From: Stentor roeselii
Lineage: Eukaryota; Ciliophora; Heterotrichea; Heterotrichida; Stentoridae
Direction: 5' to 3'
NCBI GenBank assembly: GCA_006503475.1
Contig: RSEH01000007.1
Coordinates: forward strand, 62,001 to 126,000
DNA length: 64,000 bases
Shown in pieces: positions 24,551 through 57,727 of the stretch (position 1 is its first letter; each line of letters starts with the position of its first letter). Under the pieces are notes generated by a model. That model was given only the letters and a program-made list of their open reading frames with translations. It had not been told where the DNA came from and ran no database searches. The translations under genes and the position numbers were made by a program.

Positions 24551-27181
24551 ATGTTTTTTTCAGAAGATAAACCGGTAGACCGGTCCTTCGACTCATCTCA
24601 GGCTAGAACGCAGCATGTGAAAGAATTTTACGAAGAGCGACTTTCAAGCCTTGCAAAGCAGCTCCAAGCTTATTTCGCAGAGCTGGACTCCGACGAAATA
24701 TTCAAAGCAATGCAAGAAAACTCATTAAGCCGAGAATTCGCAATTCAAAGAGCCTCTGAAGTTTTTTCTGAAGTAATGAGGTCCGAACAAGAACAAACAA
24801 TTCACAGACAGCAAAACGAAATAATCGAGTTCAAGACCTTAAACATGAAACTTGAATATGAAAAACAAAGACTTTCAAACATGCTAAGTTCATTCGAGGA
24901 AAAATGCAGAAACGCTGAAAATGATCGTGAAAGAGCTTTTCACGACCTTCAAATCGCCAAGAATCGACTTGAAGACCTGGGGTATCAACTCGAAGAAAGT
25001 GGAAAAAGAAAAGACTTTGAATGGATGCAGAAACTCGACATGAGCATCAGAAAGATGGAAGACAAGCTTCAAGACTCAGAGTCAAAATACTTAGTCACTA
25101 AAAAAGAACTTGACTCCTCTGGACAGATCAGGATTTCAAATGAATACCTTTCAAATGAGTTGGAAAGTTTAAAAAAACACTTAAAAAACAAGGAAATCGC
25201 TCATTTTCGAGAAATTGAAGAAATCAGAAATGAATGTCAGGTAAAAGTCTCAGAACTAGAAAAAAGCTGTGATAGTCTCAGTAGTCAATACAAAGGATTC
25301 AAAAAACAAAGTGAAGACCTTGCCGCTAATCAACAGTCGGTTATTAAAAATCTTGTTGATAAGTCGAAGCAGCTTAAACAAAAAATCATTTCGCAGAAAA
25401 ATAAACTTCAGGACTTTTCGAGGATTTCTAAAGAAAGCTCTAGTAACCTTGATGCTGCCAGGTCGAATTATGAAAAAATTATCTTGGAACTTGAGGAAAA
25501 AATCAGAGGGACTTTGAAAGAGGCTCTTGTTAAGGAAAGTGAACTGGTGGCTAAACATCAGGCACAGGTTAGTCAGCTGCAGGTGCATTATCAGCAGATG
25601 ATGAACTTGAAACTCACGGAAATGCAACAGGAGGTGGATGAACAGGTTAGGAAAAGTAAGGAACATGATCGAGAAGTTAAAAACCTAATGGACCTAAAAA
25701 TGAAAGAAATTGAAAGAGACTACCTCCCAAGATCCTTTCACGAAAAAGTCCTTCTCGAAAAAGACTCGCTGATCAATCGTCTTTCTTCAAAACTAGAAGA
25801 CTTACACAAAGAAAACGAAAAAAGCGGCAGCGACTTCCAAAGACTCCTCATCGAGCACTCAAAACAAAACGAAGATCTAATCGAAAAAACCCGATGCCTG
25901 CAAGACGAGCTTCTTCACGAAAAAGAAAGAATGGGAAACGACTTAAACCTAAAAATCCTGAAATTAAAAGACTCAGAAAACTCAAAAATTCAACTGGCCA
26001 AAGAACTCGAAAAGTCAAAAAAAGAACTGAAAGACTTGCAAGCGAATTACGAAGAAGAAGTCCAAAATCGAATAAAAGCTGAAAACGAGTTAATCAATGT
26101 AAAAAACGATTTAGTTGAAGTCACTTCAGATTTAAACCAAACTCGTCAAACCTTTAAAACAGCGAAAACTTATCATGAACAAGTCCTTTCTGATAAAGTT
26201 GACAAAGTCGACCTTCTTCATGCAAGTGAAAAAATCGAGGTTTATCGAAAAGACCTGGAAAAAAAAAACAATTTTATTAACAACTTGCAGGATGAAGTGA
26301 AAAATTTAGAGATTACTGTTAGGGACCTGAAAATGCAGAAAAATAATGAATCGAAGCAGCTGGAACAGGAAGTCACCAGACATCTGGAAGCTAAGAGTCA
26401 GTTAAAAGAACTTCAAGGGTACTCTGAGAACCTTTTAATGGAGATTGACTATCGAGATAAGAAAAATTTAGAACTGAGGAATCAACTTGATAGTCTTAGA
26501 ACTGAAACTAACTTGCTTGGAAAAGAATTGGAAGGCAAGGAAAAAGACCTTTTTTCATTCAAACAGATGACAATCACCAGAGATACTGAATCAAAAGCTC
26601 GATTCCGCAACTCTAATGAAAAAATCAAGAAATACGTGAAAAACTCTTCTTTTTTCTTAAAAAAACAACTTGGAAGTTTATCTGAAATCGTCCAACATGA
26701 GTACAGCTCTTTCAACAAGTTCATTTCTACTGTGGTTCAAGAAATTTCTATTAAAATCATTGAACTTGAACTAAAGTATCGCAAAATCATGGACTTGAAT
26801 GCAGATCAATTCGGAGAAGACATCAGGAAACATTACAAGGAAAAAATCAGTCAAGTCGAAGAATGCATGGCTCAGGAGAATTTTCATTGGAATGACTCGG
26901 AAACTGAAGGAATTAGAAGAGCTTTCAAGGCACTTATTGAAAAAAAACATGTGAGCGCAATTGAAATAAAAAGTCTTAAAGAGTCTTTAGCTAAACTCAC
27001 TGACCAGAATGAAAATTTGTATCGGGAAAACCAAAAGTTACAAATCAGGTTACATGCCAATAATGAGGCTTTTGATCAACTTCAAAGGGAAGTAACTGAA
27101 GAAGCGAATAAAATAAAAATTAGACTTGAGACTGGAAAGGATAGGGACATGAATCGAAGCCCTTTTTATAGAAATTATTGA
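24551..27181 (+). CDS. Long coiled-coil protein
   Basis: 876 aa, almost wholly heptad-patterned from ~residue 85 to 850, very rich in Lys, Glu, Gln and Leu, with Ser-rich breaks. The first ~70 residues (ARTQHVKEFYEERLSSLAKQ) form a separate helical head with conserved-looking aromatic residues. A non-coiled interruption near 690-740 contains FFLKKQLGSLSEIVQHEYSS. No motor, kinase or membrane motif is visible. Proteins of this build occur at basal bodies, striated rootlets and the cell cortex, but no named family is recognised. The stop is TGA, one of the cases showing that TGA is a stop here. Confidence 0.8.
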   Translation: MFFSEDKPVDRSFDSSQARTQHVKEFYEERLSSLAKQLQAYFAELDSDEIFKAMQENSLSREFAIQRASEVFSEVMRSEQEQTIHRQQNEIIEFKTLNMKLEYEKQRLSNMLSSFEEKCRNAENDRERAFHDLQIAKNRLEDLGYQLEESGKRKDFEWMQKLDMSIRKMEDKLQDSESKYLVTKKELDSSGQIRISNEYLSNELESLKKHLKNKEIAHFREIEEIRNECQVKVSELEKSCDSLSSQYKGFKKQSEDLAANQQSVIKNLVDKSKQLKQKIISQKNKLQDFSRISKESSSNLDAARSNYEKIILELEEKIRGTLKEALVKESELVAKHQAQVSQLQVHYQQMMNLKLTEMQQEVDEQVRKSKEHDREVKNLMDLKMKEIERDYLPRSFHEKVLLEKDSLINRLSSKLEDLHKENEKSGSDFQRLLIEHSKQNEDLIEKTRCLQDELLHEKERMGNDLNLKILKLKDSENSKIQLAKELEKSKKELKDLQANYEEEVQNRIKAENELINVKNDLVEVTSDLNQTRQTFKTAKTYHEQVLSDKVDKVDLLHASEKIEVYRKDLEKKNNFINNLQDEVKNLEITVRDLKMQKNNESKQLEQEVTRHLEAKSQLKELQGYSENLLMEIDYRDKKNLELRNQLDSLRTETNLLGKELEGKEKDLFSFKQMTITRDTESKARFRNSNEKIKKYVKNSSFFLKKQLGSLSEIVQHEYSSFNKFISTVVQEISIKIIELELKYRKIMDLNADQFGEDIRKHYKEKISQVEECMAQENFHWNDSETEGIRRAFKALIEKKHVSAIEIKSLKESLAKLTDQNENLYRENQKLQIRLHANNEAFDQLQREVTEEANKIKIRLETGKDRDMNRSPFYRNY

Positions 27182-38936: not shown

Positions 38937-41135
38937 CTATTGAGAAAAAAGTCTCTTGAAAACTTCAAGACAAGCTTTATCCTTTGCATTCTTCGCAGAA
39001 CTTCCGTAGTCCTCATACATGAAAAGGTTATCAACAAAGACCTTCACACAAAAAACTCCATCTTTTTTACTAGCTTTGAAGTCGATTTTTTTTCCAAGTC
39101 TTGAAACTTTTTCACAGAGTCTTGCGATGATTCGTTTGCGATATCGAAACTTGTTTTTAACCATGTATAAAATAATGTTCCCCAAGACAAACCCGATGAC
39201 TGTGCAGGTCATTAACAAGGAGTTAGAATCAATTAAAATTCCTGCGACGATACTTTCAAAGATATCTCCTAAACACTTCGGCATTTCAAGGACTACATCT
39301 TTTTCACTGTAAAGGTCTTCATCCCAGATGAAGTGGCTCCAGTTCTTCTCGATCACGTCCATGATGGTCTTATCGACGATGATTTCTTTGTGAAGATTTG
39401 TGGAAATTGAAATTTTCGCCAGGGTGTTGTTGCAGACCAGCTCGTGTTTGAAGTAAGTCAGGTAGTCAGGGTCGAACTTGTGAACTGTCCAAATGTTGGT
39501 TAAAATAATCAGGTCAATTATAGCGTCTCCTAAGAATTCAAGTCTTTCATAGTTGAACCCAGGGTTTAAGGTCTTGTGAGTCAGGGCTTGTTTAAAAATA
39601 CTCACATTTTCAAACTCGTATCCAAAAACACTTATTTTTGTTGGCCTTGGACATGACTCGAGTAGTTTTGAAATCGGAAAAGAACCTTCGGGAAAACTGT
39701 CAAGGTCTTCTTTTTTTAAAATTTCTAAGGATTGGTTCGTCAAGTAACTGGAGGTCAAGTCCCAACCGTCCTTTTGGATTATGCCGAGTCGTAAGAGGAA
39801 CTCACCTGCAGCGAGGATACCAGTTCCTACGTAAAATGCTCCGATTAAGGCTTCGAGAAAGTCAGCTAGCATACTTTCTGAGATCTTCTGCTCGACTTTG
39901 TAGGATTCATTTGGAGTGTCTTTTGATATGTAATAGGCAGGGCGAAAGTTGTTGGTTTTTATTGATTTGGTTTTTAGGTAACGGCTCAAGTCATGTTTAG
40001 CAGCAATCTGCGAAAGACATTTATTGCTAACCTTCCATCCCCTCTGTCGAGTAAGTCCGAACTCATTGAGTTCTAAATTATTTAGATATATATGCAGTGT
40101 ATAGACACATTTCAAAACAGTATCTCCAAGAGTTTCCAAACTTTCATAATTACAGTTCGGGCTCAAGCTAGGGGCTTGGCATGCTTCTTTAAGTATGTTC
40201 AATTCCCCTTGATAATTAAACTTGTTAGACAACTCGACCACAAAGGAAAGTGCTTCAATTTCTATCAAGTTATTCAAAAGGATCCGCCCTTGGTCCCAAT
40301 GATGAGCTTTCAGGTAAAAGACGTAACTGATCTCTGAAATCAACAGCGGGGTTCCGTTTTGATGGTAATTTTCTTTTGGCTTCGGAAATGGTGATGGTTG
40401 ATGCTTTATTGATTTTGTCTGCTTCGCGAATAATAATAATGAAGACTCGTCAAATGAACGGCAGATCGATGATGTCAGAAGGTCTCGGAAACCTTGAATT
40501 GACTGGATTTTAAAACTTTCGTCGAAGAGGATATCTAGAGGATCATATCCTTTGTACTTTTTTTGAAGGTTTTTTAGGTCTGGGTGCTTTGGACCTAGAA
40601 GAGAGGATAAAAAGGACTCTGATGAACTGTCTTTTTTTAGTTCGCATACGAACTTCCAGGTTGCGTTGCTTTTGTAACCTGTTTTTAGAATGGTTTTACA
40701 CTTTTCGCTTTCGGGAAGTTCTGAAAATTTTAGAAGTTGGGATTTTCGTGTCGCTTTTTTTATTGATGCCCAGTCGATTTTTCCTAAATTTAAAAGAACA
40801 ACAAGATAATTAGCTGTACTTTGCGTTCCCAAGTCTTTTTTTGTCGACTTAAACAAATCAGTCCAAAGTTCTTGTTGAAAACTTTTTAATTCTTCTAAAT
40901 TATCTGAACTGAGATCAAATGTTGAGTCAAATGAAGTGATCGAATTTTTAGGGAACTTTACTGGAAGAAGAATCCCAAAATTTTCACAGTTTTGGAACTT
41001 ATGAAGATGAACAATGAAGGATCTTTTATGGGTCTGAAAAGGCTGAGCTAGTATTGAAGAGTGAGTTGAAATGTTGAATGAGTAAAGATTTTCATCTAGT
41101 TTGGGTTTTTTCTTTGGATTCCCATTGATTGACAT
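38937..41135 (-). CDS. Dicer-like protein: two RNase III domains, no helicase
   Basis: A 732-aa protein. RNase III domain a carries NYESLETLGDTVLKC and SMLADFLEALIGAFYVG. Domain b carries NYERLEFLGDAIIDLI and KCLGDIFESIVAGIL. Both keep the acidic metal-binding positions. A C-terminal ~65-residue double-stranded-RNA-binding-like region ends the protein. The N-terminal ~330 residues have no helicase motifs and no clear PAZ; they may form a diverged platform or PAZ. This matches the compact Dicer-like (Dcl) class of ciliates, which makes small RNAs that guide genome rearrangement during conjugation in Paramecium and Tetrahymena. Whether this copy serves that role or ordinary RNAi cannot be told. 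Its start is 171 bp from the divergent kinase gene. Confidence 0.9.
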   Translation of the reverse strand: MSINGNPKKKPKLDENLYSFNISTHSSILAQPFQTHKRSFIVHLHKFQNCENFGILLPVKFPKNSITSFDSTFDLSSDNLEELKSFQQELWTDLFKSTKKDLGTQSTANYLVVLLNLGKIDWASIKKATRKSQLLKFSELPESEKCKTILKTGYKSNATWKFVCELKKDSSSESFLSSLLGPKHPDLKNLQKKYKGYDPLDILFDESFKIQSIQGFRDLLTSSICRSFDESSLLLFAKQTKSIKHQPSPFPKPKENYHQNGTPLLISEISYVFYLKAHHWDQGRILLNNLIEIEALSFVVELSNKFNYQGELNILKEACQAPSLSPNCNYESLETLGDTVLKCVYTLHIYLNNLELNEFGLTRQRGWKVSNKCLSQIAAKHDLSRYLKTKSIKTNNFRPAYYISKDTPNESYKVEQKISESMLADFLEALIGAFYVGTGILAAGEFLLRLGIIQKDGWDLTSSYLTNQSLEILKKEDLDSFPEGSFPISKLLESCPRPTKISVFGYEFENVSIFKQALTHKTLNPGFNYERLEFLGDAIIDLIILTNIWTVHKFDPDYLTYFKHELVCNNTLAKISISTNLHKEIIVDKTIMDVIEKNWSHFIWDEDLYSEKDVVLEMPKCLGDIFESIVAGILIDSNSLLMTCTVIGFVLGNIILYMVKNKFRYRKRIIARLCEKVSRLGKKIDFKASKKDGVFCVKVFVDNLFMYEDYGSSAKNAKDKACLEVFKRLFSQ

Positions 41136-41306: not shown

Positions 41307-43778
41307 ATGAATTCTTTGGTAGGCGACTCAATCCCATTTCAGAAGTTCCAAGTCTCAATCGAAGAACTTCTCCACGAAACTCCATCAATCCGTTACTACA
41401 AAGCTCGTCATTCCGAAAAATTCTTCACAGTCAAGCAATTCAAGAATCCAGAAGGAAAAGACCAGTACTTAAACGAGCTCCAAGCCTACCGTCATTCAGG
41501 TCTTCACGGAAAATTGCAGAACCTTCAAGATTCCAAAGAATTTTCAGAATATTCTTTGATATTAACTGACTTCAGCGCACGTCATACCCTGTCATCAGTT
41601 CTATCATCCGAGAATTTGACCGACCCTCAAATAGTGACACTTCTTCGAGACTTGGTGGTAGTTTTATTCCACTTGCACCAGCGAAAGCTGGTGCATTTAA
41701 GAGTTCATCCAGATTCCATATTCGTCACAAATGACTACAAGTTTAAACTCGGTGAACTTTGGAGCTTATGTCAAGAAGGCGACTTGAGACAGAACCTGGG
41801 GAAGATCCCGGCGGACTACCGTCCGCCCGAGGTGATAGAGCAAGGCGAAGGCATTTTAACCTGCGCTGTCGACCTCTGGGCCCTTGGGTGTCTTTTGCAT
41901 CAGGTTCTCTTTCACGAGCCGGCCTTTTCTAACAACCTTGACCTGCAGATGAGGGGGAAGACGGTGAAAACGAATCTTTACGTCGCTGAGTACTGGAAAC
42001 TTCTGCTTAGTCGACTTTTAGACCCCAACCCTTCGACCCGAGCACGACTTGGAGAAATTGCAGTTCTTTTGAATGAAGGGTATATGCCTAAAAGTCCCTT
42101 TCCTGAAAACACTGACTATATCAAAGCAAATAACAGCTTCGGGACTAGTACCAAGTCCTGGGTCGCAAGCGTCACTGATAAAACTGAACAAGTGCCAGAC
42201 CTCGCTTGTATCAGCAAACTCGTCGGAAAAGCCTGGAATAAACCATTTAAAATCCCGAAGGTCTTCCAAGAGTTACAAAAACGTCCTATTTCTAAACCTC
42301 CTATTGTTTTAAAAGCACTTTTTCTCATACATCGATATTTGACCCTCGGCCCGAAATCTACTTCAGATGTTGAAATGGGATGTCAGTTATTTTTAGCGGA
42401 AGTTGAAAAACATTGGAAATTTACCACGAAACCGAAAAGTGGTCAAATGGATGACTTGAAAAGTTTAGTTGTGAATTTTAATGATTTGTTGAAACTTAAA
42501 GCAAATTTTCATCTGCAAAGCAAGTCTTTTGGGGACTGGTCCGATCTTTCTTCTGTGGACCCTGAGGTCTTTGATGGGCTTTTTGAGTACTGGAGCTTTT
42601 CTCTTAGAACTGCGAATTGTTTCATGACAACTACTGAGAACTTGAATGCGATTAAAGGGCTGATCGTAGCTGCTTTGATAGAAGAGCAGCAGAGAATAAT
42701 GTTAGAACTTGCAGACCTTACTAAAATAACAGGTCTTTCACTCAACCAACGTTTTGACGAGCTTCGAACCGAGACCATCAGAATCATAAGCCGTAACAAA
42801 ATAATCTTTCCAGGAACTCACTCAGCGAAGCTTTTTTCTCACAATTCAAGCCTATCCTCCAGTAGTCCAGTATCAACAAGTAAATCCTCAGAAAGTATGA
42901 AAAACTCTTCAAAATCTGAAGAAAACTCTTCTCAAAAGCGCGGCTCAATCCTCGAACAAGCCGCAGCTTTTTGGGTAGTCAATCCAGAAGAGATAAAAAA
43001 AGAAAAAGAAATCGGCCAAGGCAGCAGCTGTGTCGTGTACCGAGCGACTTACCGTCATACAGCAGTAGCTTTAAAAGTCCTGAAGACCAACTCGAAGTCC
43101 TCAACAAAAGAGTTCGAAAGAGAAGTAAAGGCGATGTTGCAACTGAAGCATCCAAACCTTGTCTTATTCATGGGCGCGACATTAGGAAACGAGATGAGCA
43201 TAATGACAGAATTTTGCTTCGGTGATACTGTTTTCAGTCTTTTACATGAAAAAACTCGTGTCGGCATTTCACAGGCTCAGCAGTTGACAATGGCTCTTGA
43301 CACTGCGAAAGGCATGGCTTATCTCCATGCTTCTGGACTTTTGCATCGTGATTTAAAGTCTTTGAACCTGCTGCTGACCGAGCCGGTGAATGGACCGAAT
43401 GATAGAGTTCAAGTCAAAATCACTGACTTTGGGATTTCAGTTAGTTATGACCAGGACAGACTTATGACCGGACAAATGGGAACTTGTCATTGGATGGCTC
43501 CAGAAGTGCTGAATAATGAAGGGTATGACTACTCCGCTGATGTTTATTCTTTCGCTGTCGTCCTTTGGGAGATTTTTGCGAGGGAGACTCCTTATAAAGG
43601 CATCAATCCTGCTATGATTCCTTATCGAGTACTTAATTTAGGGGATAGACCTGATATTCAAAAGGTTAAAAACCCGATGATTCAGGCGATTATTATTCAA
43701 TGCTGGACTCGAATCAAGGAAAATCGACCTGATTTTCCGGAAATCATTAAAATGTTGGAAGAGGTTAGGTTTGAATAA
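41307..43778 (+). CDS. NAK-like pseudokinase - ANTH - TKL kinase fusion
   Basis: An 823-aa protein with three modules. Residues ~15-260 resemble AAK1/GAK kinases but are dead: the lysine (FTVKQF) and helix-C Glu remain, while the catalytic loop reads HLRVHPDS instead of HRDLKPEN and the DFG position reads GEL. Residues ~290-490 look like an ANTH phosphoinositide/clathrin-adaptor domain (VLKALFLIHRYLTLGP, then YWSFSLRTANCF). After a Ser-rich linker, residues ~550-823 form a complete tyrosine-kinase-like kinase: GQGSSCVVYRA, ALKVL, HRDLKSLNLLL, DFGIS, GTCHWMAPEVL and DVYSFAVVLWEIF. The plan suggests a kinase recruited to endocytic membranes by its own adaptor and regulated by the pseudokinase. 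Domain calls rest on motif reading; the ANTH part is the least certain. Confidence 0.8.
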   Translation: MNSLVGDSIPFQKFQVSIEELLHETPSIRYYKARHSEKFFTVKQFKNPEGKDQYLNELQAYRHSGLHGKLQNLQDSKEFSEYSLILTDFSARHTLSSVLSSENLTDPQIVTLLRDLVVVLFHLHQRKLVHLRVHPDSIFVTNDYKFKLGELWSLCQEGDLRQNLGKIPADYRPPEVIEQGEGILTCAVDLWALGCLLHQVLFHEPAFSNNLDLQMRGKTVKTNLYVAEYWKLLLSRLLDPNPSTRARLGEIAVLLNEGYMPKSPFPENTDYIKANNSFGTSTKSWVASVTDKTEQVPDLACISKLVGKAWNKPFKIPKVFQELQKRPISKPPIVLKALFLIHRYLTLGPKSTSDVEMGCQLFLAEVEKHWKFTTKPKSGQMDDLKSLVVNFNDLLKLKANFHLQSKSFGDWSDLSSVDPEVFDGLFEYWSFSLRTANCFMTTTENLNAIKGLIVAALIEEQQRIMLELADLTKITGLSLNQRFDELRTETIRIISRNKIIFPGTHSAKLFSHNSSLSSSSPVSTSKSSESMKNSSKSEENSSQKRGSILEQAAAFWVVNPEEIKKEKEIGQGSSCVVYRATYRHTAVALKVLKTNSKSSTKEFEREVKAMLQLKHPNLVLFMGATLGNEMSIMTEFCFGDTVFSLLHEKTRVGISQAQQLTMALDTAKGMAYLHASGLLHRDLKSLNLLLTEPVNGPNDRVQVKITDFGISVSYDQDRLMTGQMGTCHWMAPEVLNNEGYDYSADVYSFAVVLWEIFARETPYKGINPAMIPYRVLNLGDRPDIQKVKNPMIQAIIIQCWTRIKENRPDFPEIIKMLEEVRFE

Positions 43779-43791
43779 GATGTTTATAAGG

Positions 43792-45213
43792 TTAAACTTG
43801 AGGGTCTTTTTTAAAACGCTGGAGAAAACGACTTTTGTTTTGAATTGGTTTTTTTTCTGGTTTGGAGGGAAGGGCGAGGTTTATGCTCTCGAAATCGGTT
43901 TTTTCTTTCTTGGGTAAGGCTTTTGAGGATTTTACTTCTTCTGTGGGTTTTGGGGATCTTGGCAATGGGCTTAGAGCTTGGGATGAGGTGTTTGTGGGAA
44001 GTTTGTTAGACTGCAGAGGCTTTATCACTTTTTGGCTACGACTTCCTGATTTTCCTTTGAGGACTTTTGGAGCGGGTGGCTCAGCTTCGTTCTGAAATTC
44101 TCCCCAATATACAACTACTCCATTATCATTAGTCACTTTGCACTCATGGACCAGATTACTAACGATTAGTTCTTTTTCATTTCCTTCGAAGTTGACTCTA
44201 GCAACAAGTCCAACAACATCCAAAACAATCCCATTCCCAAATCCTTTATGTTTAACAGTCCACCCAGGCCTAATCAGCTCATCAGCAAACATTTGCACCC
44301 ATTCAAACTTAAGCACATCTAAAATATCAGGTCTCTTAACAGGATCATCCTGCAGCAATGCTGAAATAATCACTTTAGCATTTTCCGAAACATGCCCAGA
44401 AAAATTATAACATTTTTCCGAAACAAGTCTAGCCATATCCTTCGGATTTTTTCCCCTAAAAGGAGGTGCTGCATGCAACATTTCATATAAAAGTATTCCA
44501 ACAGCCCAAATATCAACTTTATAAGTCTGAGGCTGTTTATTCAGCATTTCTGGAGACATATAATCAAGAGTTCCACAGAAAGTTACACGATTATCAGTCC
44601 CATGAGCACTCCATCCAAAATCACATATTTTGACAGAATCGTCTTTGCTTATAAGAATATTTTCTGGCTTTAAGTCACGGTGAAGGACGTTTTTGCTGTG
44701 AAGGTACTCGAGACCTACACAGGTTTGTGTAAAGATTTTCCAGGCTTCTCTTTCGGAGAGTCTTCCTTTTTTGCGAAGTAAGTCGAAAAGACTTCCTTTT
44801 TCGACGTATTCCATGATGAGGTAGAGCTTTATGTGATCTTCCATGTGGTCGTAGAGTCTTACTATGTTTGGGTGGATTAAAGTCATGTGTAGAGATATTT
44901 CTCGGAAGAGAACCTTGAGGGGAATCAAGGATGTTAACATTGATTTTTTGTATATTTTTTGAGCGTAAAATTCTCTTGTGCCTTTGCGTTGGACTAGTTG
45001 AACCTCTCCGTAACTACCTGTTCCGAGGACTTTTTGGGAGTCTTTGACAGTAATGAAATCTCGAAGGGAGTAGATATGAGGCATGCAGGCCAAACTATGC
45101 CGACTTGAATCAAGATTGAGACACTCTTCCGAACAATACTTAGGAATCGAGCATTTTTCACAGGTGACATTTTGACTAGCAGGGTTTCTACAAGATAGAT
45201 AAAAACACTCCAT
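43792..45213 (-). CDS. Aurora-type kinase with N-terminal MYND zinc finger
   Basis: A 473-aa protein. Residues 3-43 are a MYND finger, pattern C-x4-C-x8-C-x2-C-x5-YC-x3-C-x7-H-x3-C. The kinase domain (~57-310) is Aurora-like: LGTGSYGEVQL, AQKIYKKS, HRDLKPENIL, DFGWSAH, a T-loop with FCGTLDYMSPEML and the aPF helix DIWAVGILLYEM. DFGWS with CGTLDY..PEM is characteristic of Aurora kinases, which run mitosis, cytokinesis and cilium disassembly. MYND fingers bind proline-rich peptides. After the kinase lies a small beta-rich module (VKHKGFGNGIVLDVVGLVAR) and a Lys/Pro/Ser tail. This MYND plus kinase plan is not the usual Aurora layout. It converges with the preceding + gene with 13 bp between stops. 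Confidence 0.87.
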   Translation of the reverse strand: MECFYLSCRNPASQNVTCEKCSIPKYCSEECLNLDSSRHSLACMPHIYSLRDFITVKDSQKVLGTGSYGEVQLVQRKGTREFYAQKIYKKSMLTSLIPLKVLFREISLHMTLIHPNIVRLYDHMEDHIKLYLIMEYVEKGSLFDLLRKKGRLSEREAWKIFTQTCVGLEYLHSKNVLHRDLKPENILISKDDSVKICDFGWSAHGTDNRVTFCGTLDYMSPEMLNKQPQTYKVDIWAVGILLYEMLHAAPPFRGKNPKDMARLVSEKCYNFSGHVSENAKVIISALLQDDPVKRPDILDVLKFEWVQMFADELIRPGWTVKHKGFGNGIVLDVVGLVARVNFEGNEKELIVSNLVHECKVTNDNGVVVYWGEFQNEAEPPAPKVLKGKSGSRSQKVIKPLQSNKLPTNTSSQALSPLPRSPKPTEEVKSSKALPKKEKTDFESINLALPSKPEKKPIQNKSRFLQRFKKDPQV

Positions 45214-56692: not shown

Positions 56693-57727
56693 TCAAGATA
56701 TATAAATTTTATTAATTTTTCTCTTTATATGATTTCCACTCGACGACCTAGGCCTCATCAAAGTCAAAGAAGGACTTTCCGCCCTAAGACTAGACCTAGG
56801 TCTAGAACTGGGACTATACTGAAAAGACGAGTTTTTCGTCTTAGGCTCTTGAACAGTAGACGACCCAGAAGAGCTTCTTTTCGAGAAATTTCTGACATTT
56901 CTTTTAAGCAGGGACTTTTTCGACGGTGAAAGTTGAATCGAAGGGACATTAGGACTCATCATCGGCAAGAAAACAGAGATGAAAAAAATTTCATCGAATT
57001 CTTTACTCAAGTCACAGTCAACTATAGCATAAGGGTTTTTTTCTAACTTTTTAATGCTCATCAGCACGGAATTAATCAAACTTCGCGACATGACCTCTTC
57101 GCCTAATTCAGCCAAAGCCACTTCTGATAAACTCTTGGCTTCTTTGTAGTTTCCTTCAAGTGCCACGCGGTTCAAGGCAAGGGCAAAGGAAAGTAAACCG
57201 TAGAAGTTGTCCATGCTGACCTTTGGGAACTTTGTCGATATTTTTCCTTTCATGATGCTGGAAACGTTGATTTTCACGATTTCCAAATATTTGTTGGACT
57301 CTTGTTGACGGTTTATCTTCCAGAGAGACATGAATGTTAAGAAGTTTGTTAGAAGATAAAGCTCGAGGCTGAAGGGACCAAGGGATTCTTTGCTTGTTTG
57401 AAGAAGAAGCTGGCTCTCGTAAAGCGATTTTAAAGATTCTGTGTATTTTTCGAGTTTGTATAAAATGTAACTTTGAACACTGTAGCTTAGGATACGACCG
57501 GGCCATAGTTTTATTGACTGGCTTTTTTGAGAGATTAGACGAGAGGATGAAATTCCTCGGGAGACTATTTCGAGAGCTTTTGGGAATGAATCAAGTTGGA
57601 TCAGTTTTATGGAGACAGAGTTGCAGAAACTCGTTAATTTTTTGATTTTTAACATTGAGTCTAGACTTCGTTCGGAAGCGTCGATGTAGTTTAGGATGTC
57701 TTGGAAGTTGTAGCCCATCACTTTCAT
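56693..57727 (-). CDS. TPR-like helical protein
   Basis: 344 aa. Residues ~30-215 form helical hairpins of ~34-40 residues (for example AKSLSEVALAELGEEVM and YSVQSYILYKLEKYTESLKS) with TPR-like Ala/Tyr/Gly positions. The last ~110 residues are Ser/Arg/Lys-rich and probably disordered or phosphorylated. No named family. Its stop lies 14 bp from the stop of the convergent acyltransferase gene. Confidence 0.68.
   Translation of the reverse strand: MKVMGYNFQDILNYIDASERSLDSMLKIKKLTSFCNSVSIKLIQLDSFPKALEIVSRGISSSRLISQKSQSIKLWPGRILSYSVQSYILYKLEKYTESLKSLYESQLLLQTSKESLGPFSLELYLLTNFLTFMSLWKINRQQESNKYLEIVKINVSSIMKGKISTKFPKVSMDNFYGLLSFALALNRVALEGNYKEAKSLSEVALAELGEEVMSRSLINSVLMSIKKLEKNPYAIVDCDLSKEFDEIFFISVFLPMMSPNVPSIQLSPSKKSLLKRNVRNFSKRSSSGSSTVQEPKTKNSSFQYSPSSRPRSSLRAESPSLTLMRPRSSSGNHIKRKINKIYIS

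Follow-up and report, generated by a model that had tools for sequence, protein, structure and literature searches.

About twenty proteins encoded in the genome of Stentor roeselii form a family with a dead kinase, an ANTH fold and, usually, an intact signalling kinase on a single polypeptide. The member studied here is encoded in the window, which is the whole stretch of 64,000 nucleotides that was analysed. Reading of the window gives one open frame at 41307-43778 on the forward strand (823 codons from ATG to TAA in the standard code, intron-free and with no internal stops). We give about even weight to the proposal that the pseudokinase-ANTH module positions and regulates a RAF/CTR1-like TKL kinase and that these proteins form a lineage-specific signalling family; regulation and TKL activity are here presumed from what is known of the protein families. 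The features of the gene are as follows.

41307..43778, forward strand: whole open reading frame, pseudokinase, ANTH-like domain and TKL kinase (823 amino acids)
41349..42086, forward strand: degenerate protein-kinase domain (residues 15-260; Pfam Pkinase 70 bits; modelled with strands and helices like those of a kinase)
41694..41717, forward strand: HLRVHPDS replacing HRDLKPEN at the catalytic loop (residues 130-137)
41754..41762, forward strand: ELW at the DFG position, by alignment column (residues 150-152)
42135..42821, forward strand: ANTH-like helical domain (residues 277-505; Pfam 27 bits, Sla2 profile match, AlphaFold2 and Foldseek)
42822..42968, forward strand: serine-rich, low-confidence linker from the ANTH-like domain to the TKL kinase (pLDDT below 50 at residues 499-548; 0 of 5 adaptor motif patterns)
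42993..43757, forward strand: intact TKL kinase domain (residues 563-817; Pfam PK_Tyr_Ser-Thr 189 bits on this part alone)
43344-43367, forward strand: HRDLKSLN of the TKL kinase (residues 680-687)
43425-43433, forward strand: DFG of the TKL kinase (residues 707-709)

The original prediction placed three domains in one protein, and this was borne out by the single open frame and by its repetition elsewhere in the genome. A search of the source genome with the full-length protein gave 64 matches. Twenty stretches were taken, mainly by their long open frames, and 18 of them were found to encode the pseudokinase-ANTH-TKL order in one closed open frame of 768-1006 codons. The two others are a two-part relative (L023) and L016 (C203:29500-32800), in which RCC1-like repeats and a TKL kinase share one 720-aa frame. 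With the window gene, the family has at least 19 one-frame members, and one interrupted copy and two kinase-ANTH relatives without a TKL kinase stand beside them. These counts are lower bounds, and the family size is known from this one genome alone. The members share 20-32% identity overall with the window protein. Among 48 pattern matches in viral contigs, no relative was confirmed.

The N-terminal domain had been described as a degenerate kinase. Taken alone, residues about 15-262 gave a weak kinase match (Pfam Pkinase, 70 bits). The sequences HLRVHPDS at residues 130-137 and GEL at residues 149-151 were confirmed, and the loss extends across the family: in the alignment of the 19 members, the Asp of DFG is absent from all and the Asp of HRD is kept only in L008. 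On these residues, the first kinase is predicted to be catalytically dead in every three-part member. The beta-3 Lys and the alpha-C Glu are kept in 15/19 and 18/19 members, respectively, as in a folded pseudokinase. We also calculated dN/dS for the pair L017/L022, the other closest pairs being saturated or nearly so. The values were 0.19 for the first kinase, 0.34 for the ANTH part and 0.28 for the TKL kinase. Thus, in this one pair, the dead domain does not appear to be drifting. The first kinase can be classed as a pseudokinase, with a kinase fold in the model, catalytic residues lost in the alignment and selection indicated by the one pair.

Two relatives consist of a kinase and an ANTH domain without the third part. 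In L082 (544 aa), the family ANTH domain (profile E 3.6e-26) is attached to a kinase whose Asp residues are intact (HLDLRPEN, CDFG). The kinase of L023 (527 aa) is dead (HRNLLPEH, no DFG) and is accompanied by the ANTH domain (profile E 6.8e-23). A TKL kinase was found neither in the stretch of L082 itself nor in the next 1000 bases downstream, and none was found near L023, downstream included.

The first kinase had also been called NAK-type, and this part of the prediction is favoured only. NAK kinases (AAK1, BIKE, GAK) act on clathrin-coat adaptors. As a query, we used the kinase domain of human AAK1, which was checked against 4wsq; it found a separate NAK-like kinase, L075, in the genome. 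A tree of 38 kinase domains was then made from 11 of the 19 first kinases, L023, L082, five of the 19 TKL domains, 19 other kinases of the genome and AAK1. Thirteen first kinases, L082 included, lie on one side of a branch at 95/91 (starred). In the best tree, the first kinases share a branch side with L082, L075 and human AAK1 (15 rows, 92/97, not starred). AAK1 is the tree row closest in identity to the kinase of L082 (27%), and CDFGSA is present in both. However, AU tests do not reject four other placements of the first kinases: with the TKL kinases (p 0.10), the group of polo-like L062 (p 0.16), the L053/L079 group (p 0.19) and the L077 group (p 0.09). When the first kinase of the window was compared with the PDB, PLK2 led, and the best 60 of 1088 matches were all PLK2, PLK3 or Aurora, with no NAK kinase among these 60. 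For the kinase of L082, Aurora B came first and GAK second, with BIKE and AAK1 lower. The profile of the N-terminal kinases rated polo-like L057 (1.4e-33) about equal to L082 (1.7e-34) and above the NAK kinase L075 (8.7e-30). As for the NAK-family property of being a catalytic kinase, the family members do not show it (DFG Asp 0/19, HRD Asp 1/19), whereas their relative L082 keeps both residues.

Because of the PDB matches led by PLK2 and Aurora, the profile scores and the AU tests, we do not accept NAK as a firm assignment. The competing explanation is that the first kinase was copied from another group, for example from the TKL kinase by internal duplication or from a polo or Aurora kinase, and that no history in endocytosis lies behind its association with ANTH. 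None of the four placements was rejected and the polo-like matches agree with this explanation, whereas the best tree and the likeness of L082 to AAK1 speak against it; we regard it as the less probable origin, yet one to be taken seriously. NAK ancestry is the best-supported reading of the sequence comparisons and is favoured, not proven. It should be mentioned that kinases of about 550-600 aa, such as L057, L048, L062 and L069, form a tight group; POLO boxes were examined in L057 and are present there. This group looks like a large expansion of polo-like kinases.

The middle region had been predicted to be ANTH-like. PF07651 matched the window protein at 27.0 bits when the middle part was taken alone and at 24.3 bits in the whole protein (cut-off 21.5). 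At E 0.01, the Pfam ANTH model matched 3/19 members and gave no match in the other 16. When the whole genome was searched for ANTH, five matches were obtained: three family members and the canonical AP180-like genes L026 and L027. We then compared the ANTH profile of the family with the PDB. Sla2 ANTH chains were found at E values of 2.9e-5 to 1.1e-4 and HIP1R at 0.7; the top row was a designed repeat protein, with 56 positions matched. The middle domain alone was modelled by AlphaFold2 with a pLDDT of 88 and a pTM of 0.90. In a Foldseek search of the PDB with this model, the best ten matches were all chains of CALM, AP180 and Sla2 (E 1e-3 to 4e-2, TM 0.44-0.75), and ENTH and other helical chains ranked below the ANTH chains. 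Only one match reached E 0.001 or less, and TM was up to 0.75, to Sla2. The 5oo7 chains among these matches are named SLA2 in the profile search.

Several sequence comparisons of the middle domain gave no significant match. A single-sequence search did not find ANTH (the best match was NSL1 at E 0.18). The alignment of the family middle domain with L026/L027 by hhalign was not significant (E 0.06; one alignment used had L009 shortened), and the family ANTH profile missed L026/L027 at E 10 among 118 open reading frames. Another helical fold was considered for the middle domain and set aside, since the profile search and the fold search both give ANTH. The ANTH fold is thus established as a confident prediction of the model, and homology of the middle domain to ANTH is likely on the sequence profiles.

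The further claim that the middle region is a membrane-binding adaptor domain was not borne out. ANTH domains bind PI(4,5)P2 through the motif K-x9-K-x-K-H. The two canonical proteins, L026 and L027, both carry K-x10-K-x-K-H, NPF, DPF/DPW and DLL-type motifs. In contrast, none of K-x-K-H, K-x-R-H and R-x-K-H was found in the first 70 ANTH residues of the 19 members. Adaptor motifs in the linkers are sparse: among the 19 members, NPF was found in none, DPF/DPW in one, a DLL-type motif in one, a clathrin-box-like motif in three and FxxF in six, and the linker of the window protein has none of these five patterns. The net charge of the first 70 ANTH residues is +8 in the window protein, against +3 in L027 and +2 in L026, and ranges from -3 to +13 among the 19 members. 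With this charge, the window protein may bind lipid via another surface. The family ANTH domain is like those of AP180/CALM and Sla2/HIP1R in its fold and in the profile match; it differs from them in lying between two kinases instead of at the N-terminus and in lacking K-x-K-H and most of the linker adaptor motifs.

These observations bear on an endocytic adaptor-kinase function. In this case, the ANTH domain would act as a clathrin/PIP2 adaptor in the manner of AP180/CALM/Sla2, the first kinase would be an AAK1/GAK that has lost catalysis, and phosphorylation of coat proteins would now fall to the TKL kinase. The predicted fold, the charge of the window ANTH domain and the favoured NAK side of the kinase tree are consistent with it. 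Furthermore, the available parts of two reports describe trypanosome proteins, TbNRP1 and TbAAK1L1, in which a NAK-related domain without HRD and DFG works in endocytosis (PMC9633767, PMC10952953). We nevertheless consider this function unlikely, because the lipid motif is missing from all members and the adaptor motifs from most, while the canonical pair in the same genome carries K-x-K-H, NPF, DPF/DPW and DLL-type motifs, and because a separate NAK kinase (L075) and two AP180-like genes are kept in the genome. In the available parts of the same reports, a fusion of the trypanosome domains to ANTH or TKL is not mentioned; the word ANTH is absent from PMC10952953 and is used once in PMC9633767.

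The C-terminal domain of the window protein is, by its sequence, an intact kinase of the TKL group, and its activity is predicted from the family. In the alignment, Lys 590, the Asp of HRD, the Asn and the Asp of DFG are all present. This agrees with the original prediction of an intact TKL kinase, as do the Pfam score and the relatives in the PDB, where CTR1, TNNI3K, RAF and TAK1 lead, with an EGFR entry (9p9u) at rank 2. In the tree, the TKL domain of the window protein clusters with that of L016 and with the other family TKL domains included, at 100/100. All four catalytic residues are kept in 15/19 members, the window protein included, and at least one is lost in L015, L021, L024 and L025. 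Therefore, catalysis is not a function common to every member. L021, L024 and L025 are double pseudokinases, the catalytic residues of their C-terminal TKL domain having been lost too.

The three regions of the window protein were thus each recognized by profile (Pkinase 70, ANTH 27.0 and PK_Tyr_Ser-Thr 189 bits), and all three fold in an AlphaFold2 model of the full chain, which was made with the alignment of the 19 family members. The mean pLDDT of this model was 80 and the pTM 0.41, which means that the domains are predicted but the mutual arrangement of pseudokinase, ANTH and TKL is not. A fold search with the full chain was uninformative, as all of the best 50 rows were kinases. JAK and TYK2 are among these matches, at TM about 0.3 and rmsd about 20 Å. 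Like the family, JAK/TYK2 carry a pseudokinase ahead of an active kinase within the same polypeptide; they differ in belonging to other kinase groups and in having another middle domain. RAF, CTR1 and TNNI3K are the nearest solved relatives of the C-terminal domain, one EGFR entry aside. Their regulatory regions are of other kinds, whereas here the regulatory part would be a pseudokinase and an ANTH domain.

Pairwise distances of the parts correlate across members, with rho 0.34 for first kinase and TKL, 0.43 for ANTH and TKL and 0.50 for first kinase and ANTH; among 5000 permutations, 21, 0 and 0, respectively, were as high. Such co-variation is expected if the three parts descended together from one copied fused gene. 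Ten of the 19 members lie on three contigs (C2, C429 and C92), some of them adjoining. The interrupted copy (L021/L085, C2:134700-140350) has half an ANTH domain and a TKL kinase in one 389-codon frame with a first-kinase match upstream, so that the break lies between the first kinase and the ANTH part. Although the frames are known from genomic DNA alone and this one copy is broken, it is very improbable that two or three adjacent genes were taken for one or that the contig is chimeric, because the order recurs in one uninterrupted frame at 18 other loci on separate stretches and the distances of the parts co-vary; chimera and gene merger were ruled out by the order common to 19 loci.

In the window, the gene is flanked by two genes on the reverse strand. 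Directly upstream and divergent is a gene for a 732-aa protein with two stretches of RNase III domain (38937-41135). On the other side, 43792-45213 encodes a kinase whose N-terminus carries a MYND zinc finger (zf-MYND 23.5 bits, cut-off 22.7); this kinase groups in the tree with the L053 and L079 kinases. CDPK-like and KIF9 kinesin genes are also present in the window. The 28 open reading frames of 250 or more codons in the window end in TAA (15), TAG (11) and TGA (2); the two that end in TGA (24551-27181 on the forward strand and 56693-57727 on the reverse strand) have no Pfam match above cut-off. Mitochondrial uL4 of the genome has its best match in PDB 6z1p, the Tetrahymena mitoribosome (E 7e-28, next match 1e-23), whereas cytosolic uL4 was uninformative. 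The genes named, the stop codons and mitochondrial uL4 suggest a ciliate with the standard code. A telomeric repeat was not evident in the 110-base tips of 12 contig ends.

In the original prediction, no described protein with this order of domains was known. Among the matches listed in the open-access literature, we found neither a pseudokinase-ANTH-TKL protein nor a kinase-ANTH protein; annotation-only or unpublished cases are possible. The pseudokinase-ANTH-TKL order thus appears to be undescribed. AAK1 is not known to carry an ANTH domain or a second kinase. In the text of a study of the ANTH/ENTH/VHS superfamily, which includes Tetrahymena, the word kinase occurs once, for lipid kinases (PMC3473312). 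Regulation by a pseudokinase has precedents: the accessible text of PMC9633767 names JAK JH2/JH1 for a linked pseudokinase that regulates a kinase and RAF-KSR for a partner pseudokinase.

In the proposed mechanism, the non-catalytic kinase and the ANTH-fold domain would form an N-terminal module for both regulation and targeting, and the C-terminal TKL kinase, which is kin to RAF, CTR1 and TNNI3K, would be the enzyme. The ANTH domain may bind the membrane or an endocytic partner, that is, lipid via a non-classical surface, or protein. The pseudokinase would hold or present the TKL kinase through domain contact. Recruitment or clustering would then release the TKL kinase, and a target would be phosphorylated. 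In other words, in the simplest mechanism the pseudokinase and the ANTH domain would place the TKL kinase and would restrain or activate it.

The history of the family may have had three steps. A NAK-like kinase would have joined ANTH, which is the state of L082 today; the joined kinase would have died, which is the state of L023; and the TKL kinase would have been added, after which the three-part gene multiplied. This order of steps is unrooted by other species. The joining of a NAK-like kinase to ANTH makes biological sense, because dead NAK kin act in trypanosome endocytosis and because BIKE, a NAK kinase, phosphorylates the adaptor CLINT1 according to the accessible part of PMC9133654. 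We also suggest, with more doubt than confidence, that a NAK-kinase-ANTH fusion arose in this lineage, lost catalysis and became a soluble receptor-like sensor for the TKL kinase, and that the approximately twenty members read different membrane or endocytic states, some of them being pure scaffolds in which the second kinase is inactive as well.

To our knowledge, the upstream inputs of the expanded TKL families in protists are mostly unknown. If the proposal is true, an endocytic kinase and its adaptor became one protein, lost catalysis and were given a new use as the regulatory half of a signalling kinase of unrelated origin. One genome would then hold the apparent intermediates, namely the intact kinase with ANTH in L082, the dead kinase with ANTH in L023 and the three-part genes, and these would be a natural series for how pseudokinases acquire a regulatory role. 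The family would also be a candidate link from membrane traffic to TKL signalling in a protist.
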